From positions 1 to 64,000 of the forward strand of contig JAAXKQ010000007.1 of the NCBI GenBank assembly GCA_025612245.1: a stretch of DNA of 64,000 nucleotides, read 5' to 3'. Position 1 is the stretch's first letter. Every line of letters starts with the position of its first letter. This document shows positions 23,539 to 64,000 of the stretch, piece after piece. This DNA is from Ignavibacteria bacterium (GTDB lineage: Bacteria > Bacteroidota > Ignavibacteria > Ignavibacteriales > SURF-24). Below the pieces are notes generated by a model. It worked only from the letters and a program-made list of their open reading frames with translations, was not told the origin of the DNA and did no database searches. Both the position numbers and the translations under genes were made by a program.

Positions 23539-23784
23539 TATTGTGTTACATAGTTCATCCAAAAAATCCTGAAAAAATTTGACGAAAGTTTCCGGAATTT
23601 TTTCCGAAAACGCTCCTCGTCACCATATTATATTAAGTAAAGGGAATATGCTTTACTGCATTCTTTTGTAATTGGAATCTATCGCAAATGACGTTTCCTG
23701 AAAAAAAGAATGAGGCACTCAGTAGTTTTGAGCCATGGGAGCAGAAACCTTAAAACAAGAGTATTAACTTTAGTAAAATGCTTT
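23539..23784 (+). repeat. Duplicated lipoprotein leader, copy 1
   Basis: 246-bp segment directly before the lipoprotein start. Copy 2 (29550-29793) differs only by one base in each of two homopolymers. It contains TTTCCGGAA / TTTTCCGAAAAC short repeats and two direct repeats ATGCTTTA (23648 and 23778) 130 bp apart. It presumably carries the promoter and perhaps a structured leader. Confidence 0.75.
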
Positions 23785-25146
23785 ATGAAAACACTACTTA
23801 CACCAGTATACCCCACGACCCTGTCTTATGGAATAAGAAAAGGACGCTTAATTATCCTTATTTTGCTCCTTTTTGTGTCTCATGGGTGCAAGAGTCCCAA
23901 TGAGCCTGAAGGAGGGAAAGGCAGCCCCGGGAAGCTGACCTCCGAGGACGTCTCCTGCACAGAGGCATGGCTTAAGATAAATGCTGGCGAGATGACTCTT
24001 CCATCAAATGTAACGATTAAAAGAGACGGCCAGTCCATTTTCAGCTTTACTCTTGGAAGAAAAGACACGGTAATTTATGACAATACACTTAAGCCAAACC
24101 ATTCGTATACTTACCAGGTCTATTTTAATCAAAAACAGGGCTCTCCTGTATCATTGACCACACTGGATACTACAAGTAACAGCATCAGCTGGCAGCTCTT
24201 TTATTTCGGGAACAATGTGGTTGGAAGCTGTATCAGTGACGTAGCCATTATAGATGAGAATAATATCTGGGCCGTCGGACAGATTTATGTTAATGATTCA
24301 TTGGGGCATCTGGACTATCAGTCTTATTCCGTAGCGCACTGGGACGGGAAGAAGTGGACCTTAAAGAAGATTTATGACGCAAATAACCAGCTTATGCCTG
24401 ATTTAAGGAGTATCCTGGTGCTGGGGCCGAATGATATCTGGCTTACAGACGGGGCAATCCACCACTGGGACGGGGTATCGAGTAAGATGCTTTCTTCATA
24501 CCAGAGAATAGACCTGATTGGAGGGGAAGAAAACGGGCAGTCTGTAAATAGATTATGGGGTAAAAGCTCAAGTGACCTCTACGGGATCGGCTGGGGGGGT
24601 ATGATAACTCACTTTGACGGCCATAGCTGGAAGAAGCTGGAAACAGGAACAAACCTTGATATCACGGATATCTATGGAGCTATGGATGAAAGAACGGGTG
24701 AGATGCAGATTCTGGCCACTGCAACTACAAACTACCCTCCAGGAAGAGCCATTTTAAGCATAAAGGGGAATACGGTTACCCACATTTCTTATGAACCCAT
24801 TATCTGGGACTTATATGCCGTCTGGTTCATACCGAACAGGCATTATTATGTAACCGGTGGTGGCATTTATGATAAGGTGAGCCTGATAGATAAGTTTTGG
24901 AAAGATGATTCCATGAAATACACTCATTATTCAATAGAAAGAATAAAAGCCAATGCGATAAACGATGTGTTTCTGGCTGGAGCCTACGGAGAAGTCCTTC
25001 ACTTCAATGGTGTGAACTGGAAAAGCTTTATCAGCGAGACATATCTTGATGGTGCGTATAACAATCTTGACGTAAAAGGAAACACTATTGCCATATCGGG
25101 AGGAGTTGGGCTAAGAGGAGTAGTTCTCATCGGGAAAAGAAAATGA
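23785..25146 (+). CDS. Mosaic lipoprotein with propeller-like repeats, copy 1
   Basis: Predicted surface or periplasmic lipoprotein of 453 residues. The start at 23785 (MKTLL) is supported because copy 3 keeps only this ATG after its leader deletion. The hydrophobic segment LIILILLLFVSHGC ends in a lipobox-type Cys (about residue 35), followed by a Gly/Pro-rich linker (NEPEGGKGSPG). Residues about 45-130 look like a fibronectin-type III fold. The rest has repeats of the form HWDGxxW / HFDGxxW with NDIW or NDVFLAG motifs about 40-60 residues apart, suggesting a beta-propeller. The head to about 24000 matches copy 2 closely; the body is diverged. The M6 protease gene follows 46 bp downstream. 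The function is not known. Confidence 0.8.
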   Translation: MKTLLTPVYPTTLSYGIRKGRLIILILLLFVSHGCKSPNEPEGGKGSPGKLTSEDVSCTEAWLKINAGEMTLPSNVTIKRDGQSIFSFTLGRKDTVIYDNTLKPNHSYTYQVYFNQKQGSPVSLTTLDTTSNSISWQLFYFGNNVVGSCISDVAIIDENNIWAVGQIYVNDSLGHLDYQSYSVAHWDGKKWTLKKIYDANNQLMPDLRSILVLGPNDIWLTDGAIHHWDGVSSKMLSSYQRIDLIGGEENGQSVNRLWGKSSSDLYGIGWGGMITHFDGHSWKKLETGTNLDITDIYGAMDERTGEMQILATATTNYPPGRAILSIKGNTVTHISYEPIIWDLYAVWFIPNRHYYVTGGGIYDKVSLIDKFWKDDSMKYTHYSIERIKANAINDVFLAGAYGEVLHFNGVNWKSFISETYLDGAYNNLDVKGNTIAISGGVGLRGVVLIGKRK

Positions 25147-25192
25147 AAAACTGAATAAAATTTCCCAACAAAACAATTCGGAGGTACTTTCA

Positions 25193-28100
25193 ATGTTCAG
25201 AAAAAGGTTCGGATATTCAGTAATATTACTAGCTATTCTTGCAGGAACAATTTTAGCATCAATTCCTCCACATGAGAGGGTGAAGGAGATGATCAGGAAA
25301 GGCTTGATTCAAAAGCCATATTTTCTTCAGCATTTTCAGGAACTAAAAGAACGTGGTCTAAATGTACCATGGCGTGAAGTAGCAAAGAAACAGGGCATTA
25401 ATATAAATAGTCCTGGATCTAAAAATTCTACGAATGCTGTTAATTCTAGTTTTAAAGTACTTATGATAATAGTGGATTTTTCTGATAAACCCAAAACTGT
25501 AAGTCCTACAGCATTCGATGCTATTGGCTTTGGAACTACACAGGGTACACTAAGACATTACTATAATACCCTTAGCTCCGGTACATTGGATATTGTAACT
25601 GTGAACTTGCCAAGCGCAATGGGATGGAAGCGAATGCCACAAGCTTACAGCTATTATGTTAATGGTCATGGCGGAGAGGGGACTTATCCTAATAATGCGC
25701 AGAAGCTTGCTGAAGATGCATGCGATGCCGTTGATGGGGTAGTGAACTTCAATAACTATGACAATGACGGTGATGGCTTTGTTGATGGTCTGGTCATTGT
25801 TCATGCAGGGCCAGGGGCAGAGTATACTGGAAGTGACTATGATATTTGGTCACATTCCTGGACAATGAGCAGCCATAAAAAGCACGACGATGTTTATACT
25901 TATGCTTATACAATGCAACCTGAATACTTTCAAAATCCGGGGGATATTACCTGTGGAGTGTTTGCTCATGAATGCGGCCATATGATTTTTGGATTACCCG
26001 ATTTGTATGACACGGATTATAGTTCGGAAGGATTGGGCAATTGGAGTCTGATGGCGGGTGGCAGCTGGAATGGTCCATCTGGAATGGGTGAATCTCCTGC
26101 ATACCCGGATGCATGGTCAAGATCCCAAATGCAATGGAAAACAGCGCAATTTGGAACAGTTCAAAACATAAACTCAAATACAGTAAATCAGCAAATTCAG
26201 AGTGTGGAGAATTCTTCAATAGTTTACAAAGTCTGGAAATATGGAACTATAGGCTCAGAATATTTCATGATTGAGAACAGACAACAGACTGGATACGATT
26301 CATATTTGCCTGGTAATGGGTTGCTTATCTATCATGTTGATGAACGTAATAGTGGTAACGATAATGAATGGTACCCTGGGCATACTACTTACGGACACTA
26401 CAATGTTGCTTTAGAGCAGGCTGATGGCTTATATTCATTGGAAAAGAACTCAGGCAGAGGAGATTCTGGAGACCCATTCCCCGGAAGTTCTAATAAATTA
26501 AGTTTTTCATCTTTAACGACACCTAATTCAAATGATTATAATGGAAATCCTACTTATGTTGAAGTGAATAATATTTCCAATTCAGCTTCAGCAATGACTG
26601 CTGATATCTATATGGGAAATGTAATTGTATCTCAGACCCTTGCTGACAACATAACTCAGGTGGGCACTGTAGGAAGATGGAATGGAAGTTCGTTTAGTCC
26701 ACGCCTTACTCCCGGACAGCCCATTTCTGTTGTGCCGGGAAACAATGAAATATTGCAGGGTGATCAGGTAATATGTAGCAATCAGAAATTTTATATCTGG
26801 TATAAAAACTTTGCTAAGGGAACTGATGTTATAAACCATCATGGCTTTACTGTTGGGGCACGGGATAATAATTATAATTCCCGTTTTTCTCCGATTATTA
26901 CAAATGTAACAATTCAAAATTTGTTCGAAGGTAGTGCATCGATTAATCCATCGGACAATACTGTTGATTTTATGGACCCGTGGTTTATCAATTATAACGA
27001 TCCCACTTATGGAAACACACTCAGGAATCAGGGGATGTCTGCTCCATTTTTATCAAGGACTTCTCCTTTCAGTCCAAATACAACTACGCGGTATGAAAAT
27101 AATCAGCCATACAATGGTGTATTTATAAATCAAACAGTTTCTTCAGGTAATTTCTATTCTGTTCGTGCCCCACTGAAGTTAACAAAAAACTTAGGTGGAA
27201 CACTTGGAAGTAGAGAATTCTATTTCCAGTATTGGTCTTCTTCTAACGCAACTTTACAGCAGAATGGCACAAACCCAACTGGTTTTGATCAGAAAGCGGT
27301 GGTATTTAATGAAGATAATGCAGGTATCACTGCATACTACAAGGGACTCCACCTTTCAAACTACTCAAATGCGTTTGCAAATTCATTCCAAAAGAAGACA
27401 AAAAGCGATGGTGTAAATTCCTTGCTGGTATATGAAAGCATGAACTCCATCTGGATGGAAAATTCAAACAATATGGGCTCAAGCTGGACGATGATGAATG
27501 ATGGAAAGCCAATAAACCCCGTGGGAACTATTGCGCATGACCCTTCAATTGACGGCACAGATGACGACTGTCACTTCTATGTAGTAGGATATGCCGCACC
27601 TGATCCTTCAGCAAACACCACCAGAATCATGGCCTCAGAGGTCAACGGCTTCTCCATTACAGGAGCCAAGACCCTTATAAGCAATATACCGGGAAGCACA
27701 TTTGATGCCCAGCCCGTAGTGGCATGCCTTGTTGTTTCTAAAAGCCAGGGTACTTTATCAGACAAGAGAGCAATCATGATCTGGAGGCAGCCTGCAATGA
27801 CAGATGACTTTGCAGGTACGTTTCCTGCAGGCTTATACTACAAGACCGGTACGCTTACACAGAAGCCCGACTCAAGTAATCCTTATCTCACGCTAAATGA
27901 AATAACCTGGGAGCCGTATGCTTTTGGTACACACATAGAGGGAACTGACATAAACAGCTTTAACCCGACCGTTGCAGGCGTAAGGGATGAGGCTAATGCA
28001 ATTCCGATGGATTTTTACCTGGCCTTTAGCCAGAAAACAGGCTCTGGCGGCAGCTGGAGCGTAATTAAGTACACGAAGCTTACTCTTAACAGCGACGGAA

Positions 28101-29428
28101 CGGTTACTGTTGCTCCTTTGGTGGAAATATCAGATCCTGTAGATTATGGTTCTTACCATCAGCTGAATGAAAAGCCTTCAATTACTCTGGTCAATAACCT
28201 GCCTTGTGTTGCCTGGAAAAACTATGACGACGCAACATACATGCAGACTGCCGTTCTAAAAAGGAAGGTTTCCAGCACTTCATGGTCCGATACTTATAAT
28301 TACGCCGGGAAAGATGACGATGCCACGTCAGTTCACGTGAGTAATCTTGGAAACCTGAGCATAGGTTACAAAAACTTTGTCCTTGGCTGGAGCACCAGCT
28401 ATTCAGGGAACCAGTTCGTAAGGAGCACTTCTTTATCCACCATATACAATTCAAATACGGCAGAACAGAACGTGCAGGTAATGGGCGGCAGCAGAGCTGA
28501 TTTTACCGATTCTTACCTCATCTCTTTTAATAATGCGTCTTTACCTTATTACTTCCAGTCCTCTAACGCCATTTCCTTGGGAACACTGGCCAAGGCGTCT
28601 TCAGAAGAGGGGCAGGGAAGTACAATTGAAAGCCGCAGCGGCCTGATAAAGCTCAATGACGTCCTCTTGAAGGCTTCCTTAGGCGAGGTGGCATTCAATG
28701 ACAGCAAGATAGGCTTCAAGGAGCCGAAGGAGAATGAGGAAAGGTCCTATGAACACTTCCAGGGTTCACTTGAAACCGGAGACATCGACGTAAATAACAG
28801 CGGAAGCCTCTCCTACTCCCTCGGCTTTGACTTAAGTGATTCGCTCAAGATGGCCTCACTTCTCAAAGATGGCGGAAAGATTGCGCTTCAGCTCGAGTTA
28901 ATCGACGCCGGAACAAAAGCGGTACTGAAGTCTCTGAACTCATTTGTACTTACTTCTTCATCAATAATGAAGCTAAAGCCGCAGAGCTACAGGCTCGACT
29001 TAAGCGGAATCGGAAACAGGAAGGTGGCTCTCAGACTTTCAAGGGAGCTTAGCCTCAGAGACAGCCTTAAAGCTGAATACTACGTCTTGAGATCATACAG
29101 CATTCCAAGGCAGGCAAAGAAGGAGAAGTATGTAGATCTGAGCTATTCGGAAGATACAAGGGTAACTGAATATGCCATAAGCCAGAACTACCCGAACCCC
29201 TTTAACCCTACAACAATGATAACTTACCAGATCCCCAGGGCCTCAAAGGTCACTCTCAAGGTCTATGACATGCTGGGTAAGGAAGTTTCTACACTCGTAA
29301 ACGGGTATAAGGAGATGGGGAAGTACTCTGTTGAATTCAACGCTTCAAGCCTCCCCAGTGGGACCTATATCTATGAGATAAGGGCAAATGACTTCGTCAA
29401 GAGCGGCAAGATGATGCTTTTGAAGTAA
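25193..29428 (+). CDS. Giant secreted M6-family metalloprotease with type IX sorting tail
   Basis: A 1411-residue exported zinc protease of the immune-inhibitor-A/M6 type. The start follows GGAGGTACTTTCA. Residues 1-22 are a signal peptide; the PPHERVKEMIRKG stretch begins a propeptide. The zinc site is HECGH followed by FGLPDLYD (about residues 261-274), preceded by FVDGLVIVHAGPG and followed by WSLMAGGSWNG, all typical of M6. Residues about 480-1300 are beta-rich, with a possible sialidase/propeller-like part. The C-terminus has NYPNPFNPTTMI and ends VKSGKMMLLK, a type IX sorting domain. Base composition shifts near 27.5 kb, suggesting the front half was joined to a resident back half. It is co-oriented with the lipoprotein upstream and followed by a terminator. 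Confidence 0.88.
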   Translation: MFRKRFGYSVILLAILAGTILASIPPHERVKEMIRKGLIQKPYFLQHFQELKERGLNVPWREVAKKQGININSPGSKNSTNAVNSSFKVLMIIVDFSDKPKTVSPTAFDAIGFGTTQGTLRHYYNTLSSGTLDIVTVNLPSAMGWKRMPQAYSYYVNGHGGEGTYPNNAQKLAEDACDAVDGVVNFNNYDNDGDGFVDGLVIVHAGPGAEYTGSDYDIWSHSWTMSSHKKHDDVYTYAYTMQPEYFQNPGDITCGVFAHECGHMIFGLPDLYDTDYSSEGLGNWSLMAGGSWNGPSGMGESPAYPDAWSRSQMQWKTAQFGTVQNINSNTVNQQIQSVENSSIVYKVWKYGTIGSEYFMIENRQQTGYDSYLPGNGLLIYHVDERNSGNDNEWYPGHTTYGHYNVALEQADGLYSLEKNSGRGDSGDPFPGSSNKLSFSSLTTPNSNDYNGNPTYVEVNNISNSASAMTADIYMGNVIVSQTLADNITQVGTVGRWNGSSFSPRLTPGQPISVVPGNNEILQGDQVICSNQKFYIWYKNFAKGTDVINHHGFTVGARDNNYNSRFSPIITNVTIQNLFEGSASINPSDNTVDFMDPWFINYNDPTYGNTLRNQGMSAPFLSRTSPFSPNTTTRYENNQPYNGVFINQTVSSGNFYSVRAPLKLTKNLGGTLGSREFYFQYWSSSNATLQQNGTNPTGFDQKAVVFNEDNAGITAYYKGLHLSNYSNAFANSFQKKTKSDGVNSLLVYESMNSIWMENSNNMGSSWTMMNDGKPINPVGTIAHDPSIDGTDDDCHFYVVGYAAPDPSANTTRIMASEVNGFSITGAKTLISNIPGSTFDAQPVVACLVVSKSQGTLSDKRAIMIWRQPAMTDDFAGTFPAGLYYKTGTLTQKPDSSNPYLTLNEITWEPYAFGTHIEGTDINSFNPTVAGVRDEANAIPMDFYLAFSQKTGSGGSWSVIKYTKLTLNSDGTVTVAPLVEISDPVDYGSYHQLNEKPSITLVNNLPCVAWKNYDDATYMQTAVLKRKVSSTSWSDTYNYAGKDDDATSVHVSNLGNLSIGYKNFVLGWSTSYSGNQFVRSTSLSTIYNSNTAEQNVQVMGGSRADFTDSYLISFNNASLPYYFQSSNAISLGTLAKASSEEGQGSTIESRSGLIKLNDVLLKASLGEVAFNDSKIGFKEPKENEERSYEHFQGSLETGDIDVNNSGSLSYSLGFDLSDSLKMASLLKDGGKIALQLELIDAGTKAVLKSLNSFVLTSSSIMKLKPQSYRLDLSGIGNRKVALRLSRELSLRDSLKAEYYVLRSYSIPRQAKKEKYVDLSYSEDTRVTEYAISQNYPNPFNPTTMITYQIPRASKVTLKVYDMLGKEVSTLVNGYKEMGKYSVEFNASSLPSGTYIYEIRANDFVKSGKMMLLK

Positions 29429-29452
29429 AAGGTTAGTCTGAAGTTAAATCAT

Positions 29453-29490
29453 GGCAGAAGTTCCTAATTGGGGCTTCTGCCTTTGTTATT
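29453..29490 (+). terminator. Terminator after the M6 protease gene
   Basis: GGCAGAAG pairs with CTTCTGCC around TTCCTAATTGGGG, followed by TTTGTTATTTG. An almost identical hairpin occurs at 31297-31325 after the remnant of the second protease gene. Confidence 0.75.
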
Positions 29491-29549
29491 TGTACACCCG
29501 GCAGGGTATTTGTACTATAAGGTGGCCGATGAATAATGACAAGGAAAGC

Positions 29550-29793
29550 TATTGTGTTACATAGTTCATCCAAAAAATCCTGAAAAATTTGACGAAAGTT
29601 TCCGGAATTTTTCCGAAAACGCTCCTCGTCACCATATTATATTAAGTAAAGGGAATATGCTTTACTGCATTCTTTTGTAATTGGAATCTATCGCAAATGA
29701 CGTTTCCTGAAAAAAAGAATGAGGCACTCAGTAGTTTTGAGCCATGGGAGCAGAAACCTTAAAACAAGAGTATTAACTTTAGTAAAATGCTTT
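29550..29793 (+). repeat. Duplicated lipoprotein leader, copy 2
   Basis: 244 bp, identical to copy 1 apart from one fewer A and one fewer T in homopolymer runs. The ATGCTTTA direct repeats are at 29657 and 29787, again 130 bp apart. The non-coding leader is better conserved between copies 1 and 2 than the coding sequence that follows. Confidence 0.75.
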
Positions 29794-31179
29794 ATGAAAA
29801 CACTACTTACACCAGAATACCCCACGTCCCTGTCTTATGGAATAAGAAAAGGAGGCTTAATTATCCTTATTTTGTTTCTCCTCGTGTCTTCTCATGGGTG
29901 CAAGAGTCCCAATGAGCCTGAAGGAGGAGGGAAAGGCAGCCCCGGGAAGCTGACCTCTGAGGACGTCTCCTGCACCGAGGCATGGCTTAAGATAAATGCT
30001 GGCAGCCTGAGGCTCCCCTCAGAGGTTACAATTTCAAGAGACGGCAATCCCGTAGCCAGATTTAACCTGTCTCTAAAGGATACCACCATTTACGACGACT
30101 CCCTTCAGCCAGGGAAAGACTACACCTACCAGGTTGAGTTCAGCCCGGGAATGAAGGAATCCTTAAGCATAAGGACGATGGATACGACCAGCCACGACTT
30201 TTCATGGCAGACATTCAGGCTTGGGGATTATGGAACATGGATAAGGGATGTGGCAATCATAAACGACACTCTCATCTATGCCGTAGGTGAGATATATAAG
30301 AACTTCCCCAATGGACAAGAAGACCCCAAACCCTACAGCCTGGCCCGCTGGGATGGCCACAGCTGGTCGATAAAGAGGCTCTACTATAAATACAAAGACT
30401 ACCAGGGGCAAGAAGTCATTGCTCCTAATCCAATTGCCCGCATTTTGCCGTTCGGGGAAAATGATATCTGGTTAAGCTCGGGAAGTGTATTTCACTGGAA
30501 TGGAAGGGATTCAATTGCCGATTTGTCATTCTCAAGAGTTTCTCTGACAGAAGATGTTGATGAAGGAAAGTCACTGGATGTAATCTGGGGCACATCTTCA
30601 AACGACATCTATGCTGCCGGAGCCAAGGGTACTATTCTTCACTTCGATGGCAGGAAGTGGCAGGTAATTGAAAGCGGCACAAACCTCACCTTCTACGACA
30701 TATGGGGAGGCATGAATGACTCCGGGACAAAGCCTGAGGTCCTGGCGGTGGGTTCTATTGTTGCTACCCATTCAGGAAGTGTAATAGAAAAGCTGGATGG
30801 ATTAAATGCAGAGCAGATCTCAACCGAAGGCATTCCTTATAACAACACAGATGTGTGGTTTATCCCTGAAAAGGCCTACTATGTTGCATCTGGATTTCTT
30901 TACTACAAGCACAGGCTTACCGACCCCAGCTGGACTGAAATATCTGGCCTTACGGATTACAGCATAACAGACATTTATGGCCCTGACAGGAATGATATAT
31001 TTGTTACTACATCTTATGGAAACATACTCCATTTTAACGGGAAAAGCTGGAAGACCAATTATAACGAGGTAAAGCTTCATGGCGTTGTTTACAGCTCAGT
31101 CAGGTTAAAGAACAACCTTGCTGTTGCCGTGGGCGGCTATCCTAACTACGAAGGATTTATTGCCATTGGCAGAAGATAG
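29794..31179 (+). CDS. Mosaic lipoprotein with propeller-like repeats, copy 2
   Basis: A 461-residue paralogue of the gene at 23785. The lipoprotein signal is LIILILFLLVSSHGC with Cys near residue 36, then NEPEGGGKGSPG. A fibronectin-like domain (about 45-130) and HWNGRDS, HFDGRKW and HFNGKSW repeats follow, with ESGTNLTFYDIWGG. Blocks 29794-30400 and about 30668-30852 are nearly identical to copy 3 (62806-63400 and 63674-63858), while the segment between is clearly diverged. The protease gene expected after it is reduced to a remnant. The function is unknown; a binding or display role on the cell surface is a guess. Confidence 0.8.
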   Translation: MKTLLTPEYPTSLSYGIRKGGLIILILFLLVSSHGCKSPNEPEGGGKGSPGKLTSEDVSCTEAWLKINAGSLRLPSEVTISRDGNPVARFNLSLKDTTIYDDSLQPGKDYTYQVEFSPGMKESLSIRTMDTTSHDFSWQTFRLGDYGTWIRDVAIINDTLIYAVGEIYKNFPNGQEDPKPYSLARWDGHSWSIKRLYYKYKDYQGQEVIAPNPIARILPFGENDIWLSSGSVFHWNGRDSIADLSFSRVSLTEDVDEGKSLDVIWGTSSNDIYAAGAKGTILHFDGRKWQVIESGTNLTFYDIWGGMNDSGTKPEVLAVGSIVATHSGSVIEKLDGLNAEQISTEGIPYNNTDVWFIPEKAYYVASGFLYYKHRLTDPSWTEISGLTDYSITDIYGPDRNDIFVTTSYGNILHFNGKSWKTNYNEVKLHGVVYSSVRLKNNLAVAVGGYPNYEGFIAIGRR

Positions 31180-31214
31180 AAAAAAATGTTTTACTAACAA
31201 TTAAAGGAGTTAAA

Positions 31215-31272
31215 ATGAATTATCAAAAAAGGTGTCTCTGTTGAAAGCGGTAAGATGATGCTCCTGAAGTAA
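31215..31272 (+). pseudogene. Remnant of a second M6-type/type IX-secreted protein gene
   Basis: A ribosome-binding site (TTAAAGGAGTTAAA) and ATG are followed by AATTATCAAAAAAGG, reminiscent of the start of the 25193 gene. A frameshift leads at once to GTTGAAAGCGGTAAGATGATG, which encodes VESGKMMLLK and a stop, the same end as the intact protease (VKSGKMMLLK). The terminator downstream also matches. Only the first few and last ten codons remain, as expected after an internal deletion of almost the whole gene. Confidence 0.65.
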
Positions 31273-31296
31273 GCGGCTAGTATAAAGTTAAATCAT

Positions 31297-31335
31297 GGCA
31301 GAAGTTCCTAATTGGGACTTCTGCCTTTGTTATTT
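31297..31335 (+). terminator. Terminator, duplicate of 29453-29490
   Basis: GGCAGAAG / CTTCTGCC stem with loop TTCCTAATTGGGA and tail TTTGTTATTTG; one base differs from the copy after the intact protease gene. The following 95 bp up to metH show no further gene. Confidence 0.7.
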
Positions 31336-31430
31336 GAGCAATGAAACCCGTAAAAGTAATTCTTCGTTTTGTTGCTGCAGGAAGTAATTTGATCAGGCCG
31401 GAGGACTTTTACGCCCTCCTCCTTTATCTC

Positions 31431-62730: not shown

Positions 62731-62805
62731 AAAAAGTTTCCGGAATAATTTTCCGAAAACGCTCCTCGTCACCATATATATATATGAGTAAAGGGAATAT
62801 GATTT
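62731..62805 (+). repeat. Shortened lipoprotein leader, copy 3
   Basis: It retains AGTTTCCGGAA ... TTTTCCGAAAAC, GCTCCTCGTCACCATA and AGTAAAGGGAATATG, then joins directly to TTTATGAAAACAC. The 130 bp between the two ATGCTTTA repeats of copies 1 and 2 is absent. The CATATTATATTAAG stretch of the other copies is an AT-dinucleotide run here. Confidence 0.7.
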
Positions 62806-64000
62806 ATGAAAACACTACTTGCACCAGTATACCCCACGTCCCTGTCTTATGGAATAAGAAAAGGAGGCTTAATTATACTTATTTTGCTCCTTTTTGTGTC
62901 TCATGGGTGCAAGAGTCCCAATGAGCCTGAAGGAGGGGGGAAAGGCAGCCCCGGGAAGCTGACCTCCGAGGACATTTCCTGCACCGAGGCATGGCTTAAG
63001 ATAGATGCAGGCAGCCTGAGGCTCCCTTCAGAGGTTACAATTTCAAGAGACGGCAACCCCGTAGCCAGATTTAACCTGTCTCTAAAGGATACCACCATTT
63101 ACGACGACTCCCTTCAGCCAGGGAAAGACTACACCTACCAGGTTGAGTTCAGCCCGGGAATGAAGGAATCCTTAAGCATAAGGACGATGGATACGACCAG
63201 CCACGACTTTTCATGGCAGACATTCAGGCTTGGGGATTATGGAACATGGATAAGGGATGTGGCAATCATAAACGACACTCTCATCTATGCCGTAGGTGAG
63301 ATATATAAGAACTTCCCCAATGGACAAGAAGACCCCAAACCCTACAGCCTGGCCCGCTGGGATGGCCACAGCTGGTCGATAAAGAGGCTCTACTATAAAG
63401 ACAAGGACTACCAGGGCAAAGATGTTATCTTCCCCCTTGAGATCCATAGCATTCTGGTCTTTGGGGAAAATGATATCTGGTTTGGAGCCGGAAATATCCT
63501 ACGCTGGAATGGACTGGACTCGCTTGCAGAAATATCCTTTTCTCCTCTTTACAGCGTCAGCAATTATGAAGGATTGCCTCTAGATCAAATCTGGGGAACG
63601 GGGCCTGATGATATATATGCTGCCGGATGGAATGGGGCCCTGAGACATTTCAATGGAAATAAATGGGAGTTAATTGAAAGCGGCACAAACCTCAATTTCT
63701 ACGACATATGGGGAGGCATGAATGACTCCGGGACAAAGCCTGAGGTCCTGGCGGTGGGTTCTATTGTTGCTACCCATTCAGGAAGTGTAATAGAAAAGCT
63801 GGATGGATTAAATGCAGAGCAGATCTCAACCGAAGGCATTCCTTATAACAACACAAGCGTATGGTTTATTCCTGAAAAGGCCTACTATGTTGCAGCTGAC
63901 CGATTGTATTACAAGCACAGGCTTACCGACCCCAGGTGGACTGAAATATCTGGCCTTACGAAATACGATATAACTTGCATATATGGCTCTGACAGGAATG
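62806..64000 (+). CDS. Mosaic lipoprotein with propeller-like repeats, copy 3 (partial)
   Basis: Third paralogue of the genes at 23785 and 29794, running off the right edge after 398 codons. The lipoprotein signal LIILILLLFVSHGC matches copy 1; the linker NEPEGGGKGSPG matches copy 2. The fibronectin-like part and the first propeller section (to about 63400) are nearly identical to copy 2. The section 63400-63670 differs (RWNGLDSLAE, HFNGNKWEL). Identity returns from ESGTNLNFYDIWGG to about 63858, then falls again. The linker is encoded over a run of six G residues. No partner protease can be seen before the window ends. Confidence 0.8.
   Translation, partial: MKTLLAPVYPTSLSYGIRKGGLIILILLLFVSHGCKSPNEPEGGGKGSPGKLTSEDISCTEAWLKIDAGSLRLPSEVTISRDGNPVARFNLSLKDTTIYDDSLQPGKDYTYQVEFSPGMKESLSIRTMDTTSHDFSWQTFRLGDYGTWIRDVAIINDTLIYAVGEIYKNFPNGQEDPKPYSLARWDGHSWSIKRLYYKDKDYQGKDVIFPLEIHSILVFGENDIWFGAGNILRWNGLDSLAEISFSPLYSVSNYEGLPLDQIWGTGPDDIYAAGWNGALRHFNGNKWELIESGTNLNFYDIWGGMNDSGTKPEVLAVGSIVATHSGSVIEKLDGLNAEQISTEGIPYNNTSVWFIPEKAYYVAADRLYYKHRLTDPRWTEISGLTKYDITCIYGSDRN

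Follow-up and report, generated by a model that had tools for sequence, protein, structure and literature searches.

Two neighbouring lipoprotein genes of an Ignavibacteria bacterium, both within the 64,000-nt stretch of DNA that was analyzed (the window), share a non-coding leader that is better conserved than the genes behind it, and the question that this locus raises is what has kept, or recently made, the two leaders so alike. The original prediction held that copies 1 and 2 share about 245 bp of leader, differing by only one A and one T, and global alignment confirmed this, with 246 columns containing no substitutions and two single-base gaps (one A, one T). Similarity upstream ends approximately 10 nt before the block. 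Downstream, the signal peptide and linker show 9 substitutions and 10 gap columns out of 217, and the coding bodies diverge as strongly as had been claimed (pS 0.72, dS approximately 2.5, dN approximately 0.6, with silent sites saturated, vs. no substitutions in the leader). The features compared were:

23539–23784, + strand: leader of copy 1, the block common to copy 2 (0 substitutions and 2 one-base indels vs. 29550–29793)
29550–29793, + strand: leader of copy 2 (global alignment with the copy 1 leader)
23656–23785, + strand: leader segment of 130 nt between two ATGCTTTA repeats, in copies 1 and 2, missing from copy 3 (three-way alignment)
23785–25146, + strand: lipoprotein copy 1, 453 aa, Fn3-like domain and beta-propeller (start from comparison with copy 3; fold from the copy 2 model)
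29794–31179, + strand: lipoprotein copy 2, 461 aa (family comparison; model pLDDT 87)
62806–64000, continuing past the window to contig position 64185, + strand: lipoprotein copy 3 (84% protein identity to copy 2; dS = 0 blocks; mosaic with copy 2)

Copy 3, which had been missed in the original prediction, has its leader at 62733–62805 and its coding sequence from 62806 to 64185 of the contig. It keeps only the core of the leader, a promoter-like element that is followed directly by ATGAAAACACTA, and lacks the 130 nt found at 23656–23785. Since copy 3 runs from the element straight into ATGAAAACACTA, comparison of the three copies indicates that translation almost certainly begins at the ATG at 23785 in copy 1 and at that at 29794 in copy 2, rather than at 23710 and 29719. 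The lipoprotein family has six members in this genome, not two, and is widespread in Ignavibacteria and their relatives; those of its relatives that carry a name put the host close to the Ignavibacteria/Melioribacteraceae. Searches of the lipoproteins against Pfam and NCBIfam returned no family, only weak, scattered Fn3-type matches, and a search of PDB by sequence gave weak Fn3 matches only. The predicted model of copy 2 (mean pLDDT 87) comprises an Fn3-like domain and a beta-propeller, for which the best fold matches were the Ycf48 beta-propellers (PDB 2xbg and 5ojr; E 8.9e-11, TM by target approximately 0.7). Identity to Ycf48 is 13–15%, and the Fn3-like domain and lipoprotein signal are additional here; because propellers match one another widely, we drew no functional inference from this match.

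Used as a query against the whole genome, the leader matched at 21 places, in most cases over only approximately 35 nt, and these matches defined the pattern TTTCCGAAnnCGnnnnnCGTCACCATATATATA. Leader matches extend well beyond a tandem pair; a purely tandem duplication with no further leader copies was the outcome named in the original prediction as one that would have counted against it. The window holds three element sites, while 100 shuffles of it hold none:

23589–23636, + strand: promoter-like element of copy 1, core 23601–23632 (model R1, 46.7 bits, E 1.7e-13; pattern, 0 mismatches)
29600–29645, + strand: promoter-like element of copy 2, core 29610–29641 (model R1, 47.0 bits, E 1.4e-13)
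62742–62786, + strand: promoter-like element of copy 3, core 62750–62781 (model R1, 54.7 bits, E 5e-16)

The core also occurs at 25 places in this genome besides copies 1–3. Allowing up to 3 mismatches, the correctly spaced pattern was found at 27 sites in this genome and 39 in a congener, whereas the reversed control gave 0 and 1. Most of these sites matched perfectly; in this genome the numbers with 0, 1, 2 and 3 mismatches were 19, 4, 3 and 1, respectively. A profile model recovered 28 sites here and 40 in the congener, all scoring 31–62 bits, whereas the best score in the other three genera of the family was 16 bits. On these scores the set of elements is closed, the genus having been sampled as this genome (a draft of 44 contigs) and one congener. 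The other 37 genomes of the order yielded three pattern matches in all, no more than the controls. A class-wide scan, run with stricter filters and with 20 candidates scored in each genome, placed the element in 2 of 294 genomes and 1 of 151 genera, namely this genus only, and found none in the remaining 292 genomes. The exact TTTCCGAAnnCGnnnnnCGTCACCATATATATA pattern had no match in genome_contigs or viral_contigs, collections from which records near the window's genome may be omitted.

Element sites are almost always intergenic, with an open reading frame downstream on the same strand. The downstream genes, whose names at most sites were assigned by eye, are mostly unrelated and often encode lipoproteins or proteins with signal peptides. 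At approximately 12 orthologous genes of the two species, the core is 80–100% identical, while the flanks (30–130 nt upstream and 60–160 nt downstream) are often only approximately 50% identical (range 0.45–0.8). By this comparison the core is constrained and its surroundings mostly are not. Some non-orthologous sites also share flanks well beyond the motif, which indicates that promoter-plus-leader segments are sometimes copied together, with the leader of copies 1 and 2 as a local case, and part of the similarity among non-orthologous sites may reflect common descent.

These shared flanks would also suit the reading that the dispersed sequence is not a promoter at all but a conserved terminus or target site belonging to a mobile or repeat element, as would its restriction to one genus and the fact that its copies are more alike than their number requires (see below). 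We regard this as unlikely, given that the sites are intergenic and oriented towards the downstream gene, are kept at orthologous places while their flanks decay, vary freely at pyrimidine positions between invariant blocks, and have no inverted partner or associated transposase that we could see.

Several individual sites deserve description. At L024, L026, L080 and L085, AATGCTTGACAATAAYGCTGATTTT stands directly behind the element and before different genes, forming a leader sub-family. The element also precedes defence-like genes at L112 (this genome, C36:157432) and L077 (congener, C5:80758 and C5:82806), which by eye encode a TIR/SEFIR-like protein, a type I restriction HsdR-like protein and an XRE regulator; the leaders of the first two are 83% identical over 132 nt, and the genes themselves are unrelated. 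In both species (L025, G000:C14:371755; L079, G001:C13:55762), the element extends over what looks like the start of an ftsX-like gene, the true start of which may lie further downstream, and the six variable spacer bases there are also identical in the two species. At L107 (C12:43250) and L083 (G001:C21:49745), the element lies 400–580 nt ahead of an acetyltransferase gene, and the leader between the two is partly conserved (79% over 67 nt).

From the base counts of 66 sites, the core spans approximately 32 nt (positions 0 to 31) and carries approximately 49 bits, with weaker conservation over approximately 75 nt that fades to background near −30 and +55, and with invariant blocks lying beside free pyrimidine positions. 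By our own arithmetic, picking out 28 sites from the two strands of a 4.84-Mb genome would take approximately 18 bits, vs. the approximately 49 found; the 3-mismatch limit used in collecting sites inflates this conservation somewhat, although the mismatch counts drop before the limit is reached. An A/T-rich tract from approximately −27 is followed by the nearly invariant TTTCCGAA, then CG at 10–11, varying and mostly pyrimidine positions, CGTCACC, TATATATA and a purine-rich stretch. TCCGAA (+2 to +7) and TATATA (+25 to +30) are separated by a 17-nt gap, and a purine follows TATATA after 7–8 nt; the purine at +38 is present in 62 of 66 sites. This geometry appears to be of the sigma-70 type with an upstream A/T tract, in which TTTCCGAA would be −35-like, TATATA −10-like and the purine the putative start. 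As expected of a promoter class, the motif is recurrent, lies in fixed orientation upstream of genes and is kept at orthologous sites; its two boxes are also separated by approximately 17 nt and followed, at a suitable spacing, by a putative purine start, with the caveat that the boxes were chosen after the motif had been seen, making the geometry a reading and not a test.

Sigma-54 and extracytoplasmic function (ECF) readings of the motif were considered and are not favoured. The CGTC block might pass for an ECF −10; an ECF promoter needs a GAAC-type −35 and a CGTC-type −10 approximately 16 nt apart, whereas GAAAAC lies only 6 nt from CGTC, and the A/T tract stands where the ECF −35 would be. 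In Flavobacterium psychrophilum, another member of the Bacteroidota, promoter classes include the sigma-A motif TAnnTTTG and the ECF-type motif SM6 (PMC9723704). As in that species, a motif class here is common to many (here putative) starts, and alternative-sigma classes there make up a small share that includes envelope-related genes (PMC9723704). The element resembles SM6 in having a CGT block, but its consensus is far longer and stricter and lacks TAnnTTTG (PMC9723704), and its CGTC block lies 6 nt downstream of AAAAC, within the spacer of what resembles a sigma-70 arrangement. Among the papers searched, none joined Ignavibacteria, a promoter motif and a sigma factor, and the 11-mer CGTCACCATAT appeared only in papers with unrelated titles.

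Most likely, the element is read by an alternative sigma factor. This genome yielded 18 sigma factors, among them a 286-aa RpoD-like protein (L147, C14:387508–388365) that is additional to two ordinary RpoDs, much as group 2 (RpoD-like) alternative sigma factors are. It is 98% identical to a protein of the congener (L148, G001:C13:38147–39004), and the matches that come next across the order's 39 genomes are to ordinary RpoDs, at 55–58%. Within those 39 genomes it is therefore restricted to this genus, unlike group 2 sigma factors, and its distribution is the same as that of the element. Set against every RpoD in the comparison, L147 is distinguished by a single residue of region 2.4, where it has Q instead of L after WWIRQSI, and by its region 3.0; its region 4.2 helix is almost RpoD-like, which predicts no new −35. 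The pattern search listed no element at the L147 gene itself. Two ECF pairs (L282/L295 and L285/L300) are also without counterparts in the two sister genera compared. We consider L147 the best lead for the factor that reads the element and no more than a lead, the link being one of co-occurrence.

Returning to copies 1 and 2, the leader appears to be regulatory in a narrower sense than had been predicted: the promoter half of the original proposal stands as a promoter-like element, of approximately 32 nt and not 245, that recurs genus-wide before unrelated genes, while the regulatory RNA half found no support. A structured RNA leader, such as a riboswitch, would account for the identical 5′ untranslated sequence of copies 1 and 2. 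Yet the leader has no Rfam match, folds no better than shuffled sequence (z −0.45), as we found on carrying out the folding that had been proposed, and copy 3 lacks most of the transcribed part, all of which leaves this reading extremely improbable.

The remainder of the leader calls for a different explanation. Because the core is constrained and its surroundings mostly are not, the non-core leader of copies 1 and 2 is best read as free of constraint and its identity as the product of recent copying; likewise, the 130-nt part, being dispensable in copy 3, is not slow by constraint. The signal block next to the leader has a dS of 0.12, vs. 0 substitutions at 244 leader sites, and on this comparison the leader tract is younger than the signal block that adjoins it. 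The near-perfect identity over 245 bp is thus best explained by recent copying of a tract that surrounds a constrained core, and the better conservation of the leader looks to be partly due to selection on the core and mostly to the youth of the tract.

The surroundings of the two genes indicate how they came to be neighbours:

25193–29428, + strand: M6 metalloprotease, secreted and carrying a type IX sorting tail; the second gene in the tandem unit (TIGR03296 2.6e-57, TIGR04183 2.8e-12; Pfam PF18962)
29389–29492, + strand: 3′ end of unit 1, the protease's last codons and a terminator-like tail (repeat D3)
31213–31336, + strand: remnant behind copy 2, a short ORF start, the last codons of a sorting-tail gene and a terminator-like tail (repeat D3; sequence)

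The segment 29389–29492 recurs behind copy 2 at 31233–31336 with 15 differences in 104 nt. As the protease end and terminator-like tail reappear there, fused to a short ORF start, the two copies seem to represent tandem units of a lipoprotein and a secreted M6 protease, and the remnant behind copy 2 is, judging by this repeat, what is left of a deleted second protease-type gene. These matching 3′ ends would also fit a plain tandem duplication, in which the whole unit was doubled and the leader is merely its slowest-changing part, with no special element. That account is already contradicted, unless the silent rate of the body was wildly elevated, by body silent sites that are saturated vs. 0 substitutions at 244 non-coding sites, and the dispensability of the 130-nt part in copy 3 and the 25 other places holding the core also speak against it; we judge it very improbable.

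Recombination among the paralogues, the other mechanism originally proposed, was evident. The longest identical run between copies 1 and 2 is 207 nt (maximum of 34 in 2000 column shuffles), and copies 2 and 3 share identical runs of 182, 160 and 159 nt (largest in 2000 column shuffles, 90). In codon windows, silent divergence between copies 2 and 3 is 0 at approximately codons 100–200, near saturation at 220–300, 0 at 320–365 and then moderate. A second pair, L110 (C18:117777–119039) and the contig-end copy L111 (C15:9–800), has approximately 600 identical nt beside sequence of approximately 65% identity. The C18 gene has no element, and its closest relative in the congener (L095) has one. As in gene conversion, the identity blocks are longer than overall divergence allows, silent sites included, and the alignments make it clear that the lipoprotein paralogues are mosaics from segmental exchange, although in a draft genome of 44 contigs these could in principle include assembly errors. 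What did not hold was the leader's role as the anchor by which bodies are swapped: copy 3 shares body blocks with copy 2 in spite of lacking most of the leader, so by this evidence the leader is not a required anchor.

The same mosaicism bears on the proposed likeness to surface-antigen cassette systems, in which the leader and signal region would be an expression site or anchor and bodies would be swapped in for surface variation. Sharp identity blocks, the predicted surface or periplasmic location of the lipoproteins and the concentration of differences between copies 2 and 3 in the central propeller stretch would all suit such a system. But copies 1–3 each have a full reading frame with its own element, the family has only six members, the sharing of body blocks by copy 3 without most of the leader does not fit, and no promoterless silent cassettes were found, the sole partial copy lying at a contig end. 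Nothing here resembles silent cassettes with an expression site, and we think the antigen reading improbable. The paralogues are instead like the gene-conversion families of bacterial lipoproteins in being mosaic, with identity blocks at silent sites, and unlike them in having no silent cassettes or expression locus, each copy being complete with its own element.

Taking together what can be read from the sequences themselves, namely the element, its distribution, its conservation at orthologous sites, the mosaicism and the unit repeats, we favour, with fairly good confidence, a combined explanation: a putative genus-specific promoter of a discrete regulon within the leader, lipoprotein paralogues that exchange segments, and recent copying at the 5′ end. 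The regulon would comprise approximately 28 genes in this genome and 40 in the congener, with many encoding lipoproteins or secreted proteins, and its promoter would be read by an alternative sigma factor, for which the genus-restricted RpoD-like protein at C14:387508–388365 is the best candidate. Gene conversion or ectopic recombination would account for the exchange of segments among the lipoprotein genes. A tandem duplication of the lipoprotein and secreted M6-protease unit, followed by loss of the second protease, would have given rise to copies 1 and 2, and their 5′ block, core and non-core alike, would recently have been copied from one to the other, in a direction and by a mechanism that we infer.

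More tentatively, and as a possibility that we would not yet expect to prove correct, a promoter class may have been born within one Ignavibacteria genus. In this scenario, the additional sigma factor resembling RpoD and 28–40 unusually information-rich promoters forming a closed set (core of approximately 49 bits) would have emerged jointly and spread, in part as cassettes of promoter and leader, to genes for lipoproteins and secreted proteins, to ftsX-like genes and possibly to defence genes. A conserved leader before a divergent body can come from recent copying around a short functional core, and for this poorly studied class the element supplies a candidate transcription signal that is specific and open to experiment. 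Confined to one genus as a closed set, and accompanied there by a candidate sigma factor of equally narrow distribution, these promoter-like elements would offer a clean natural example of how a new bacterial regulon originates and spreads.
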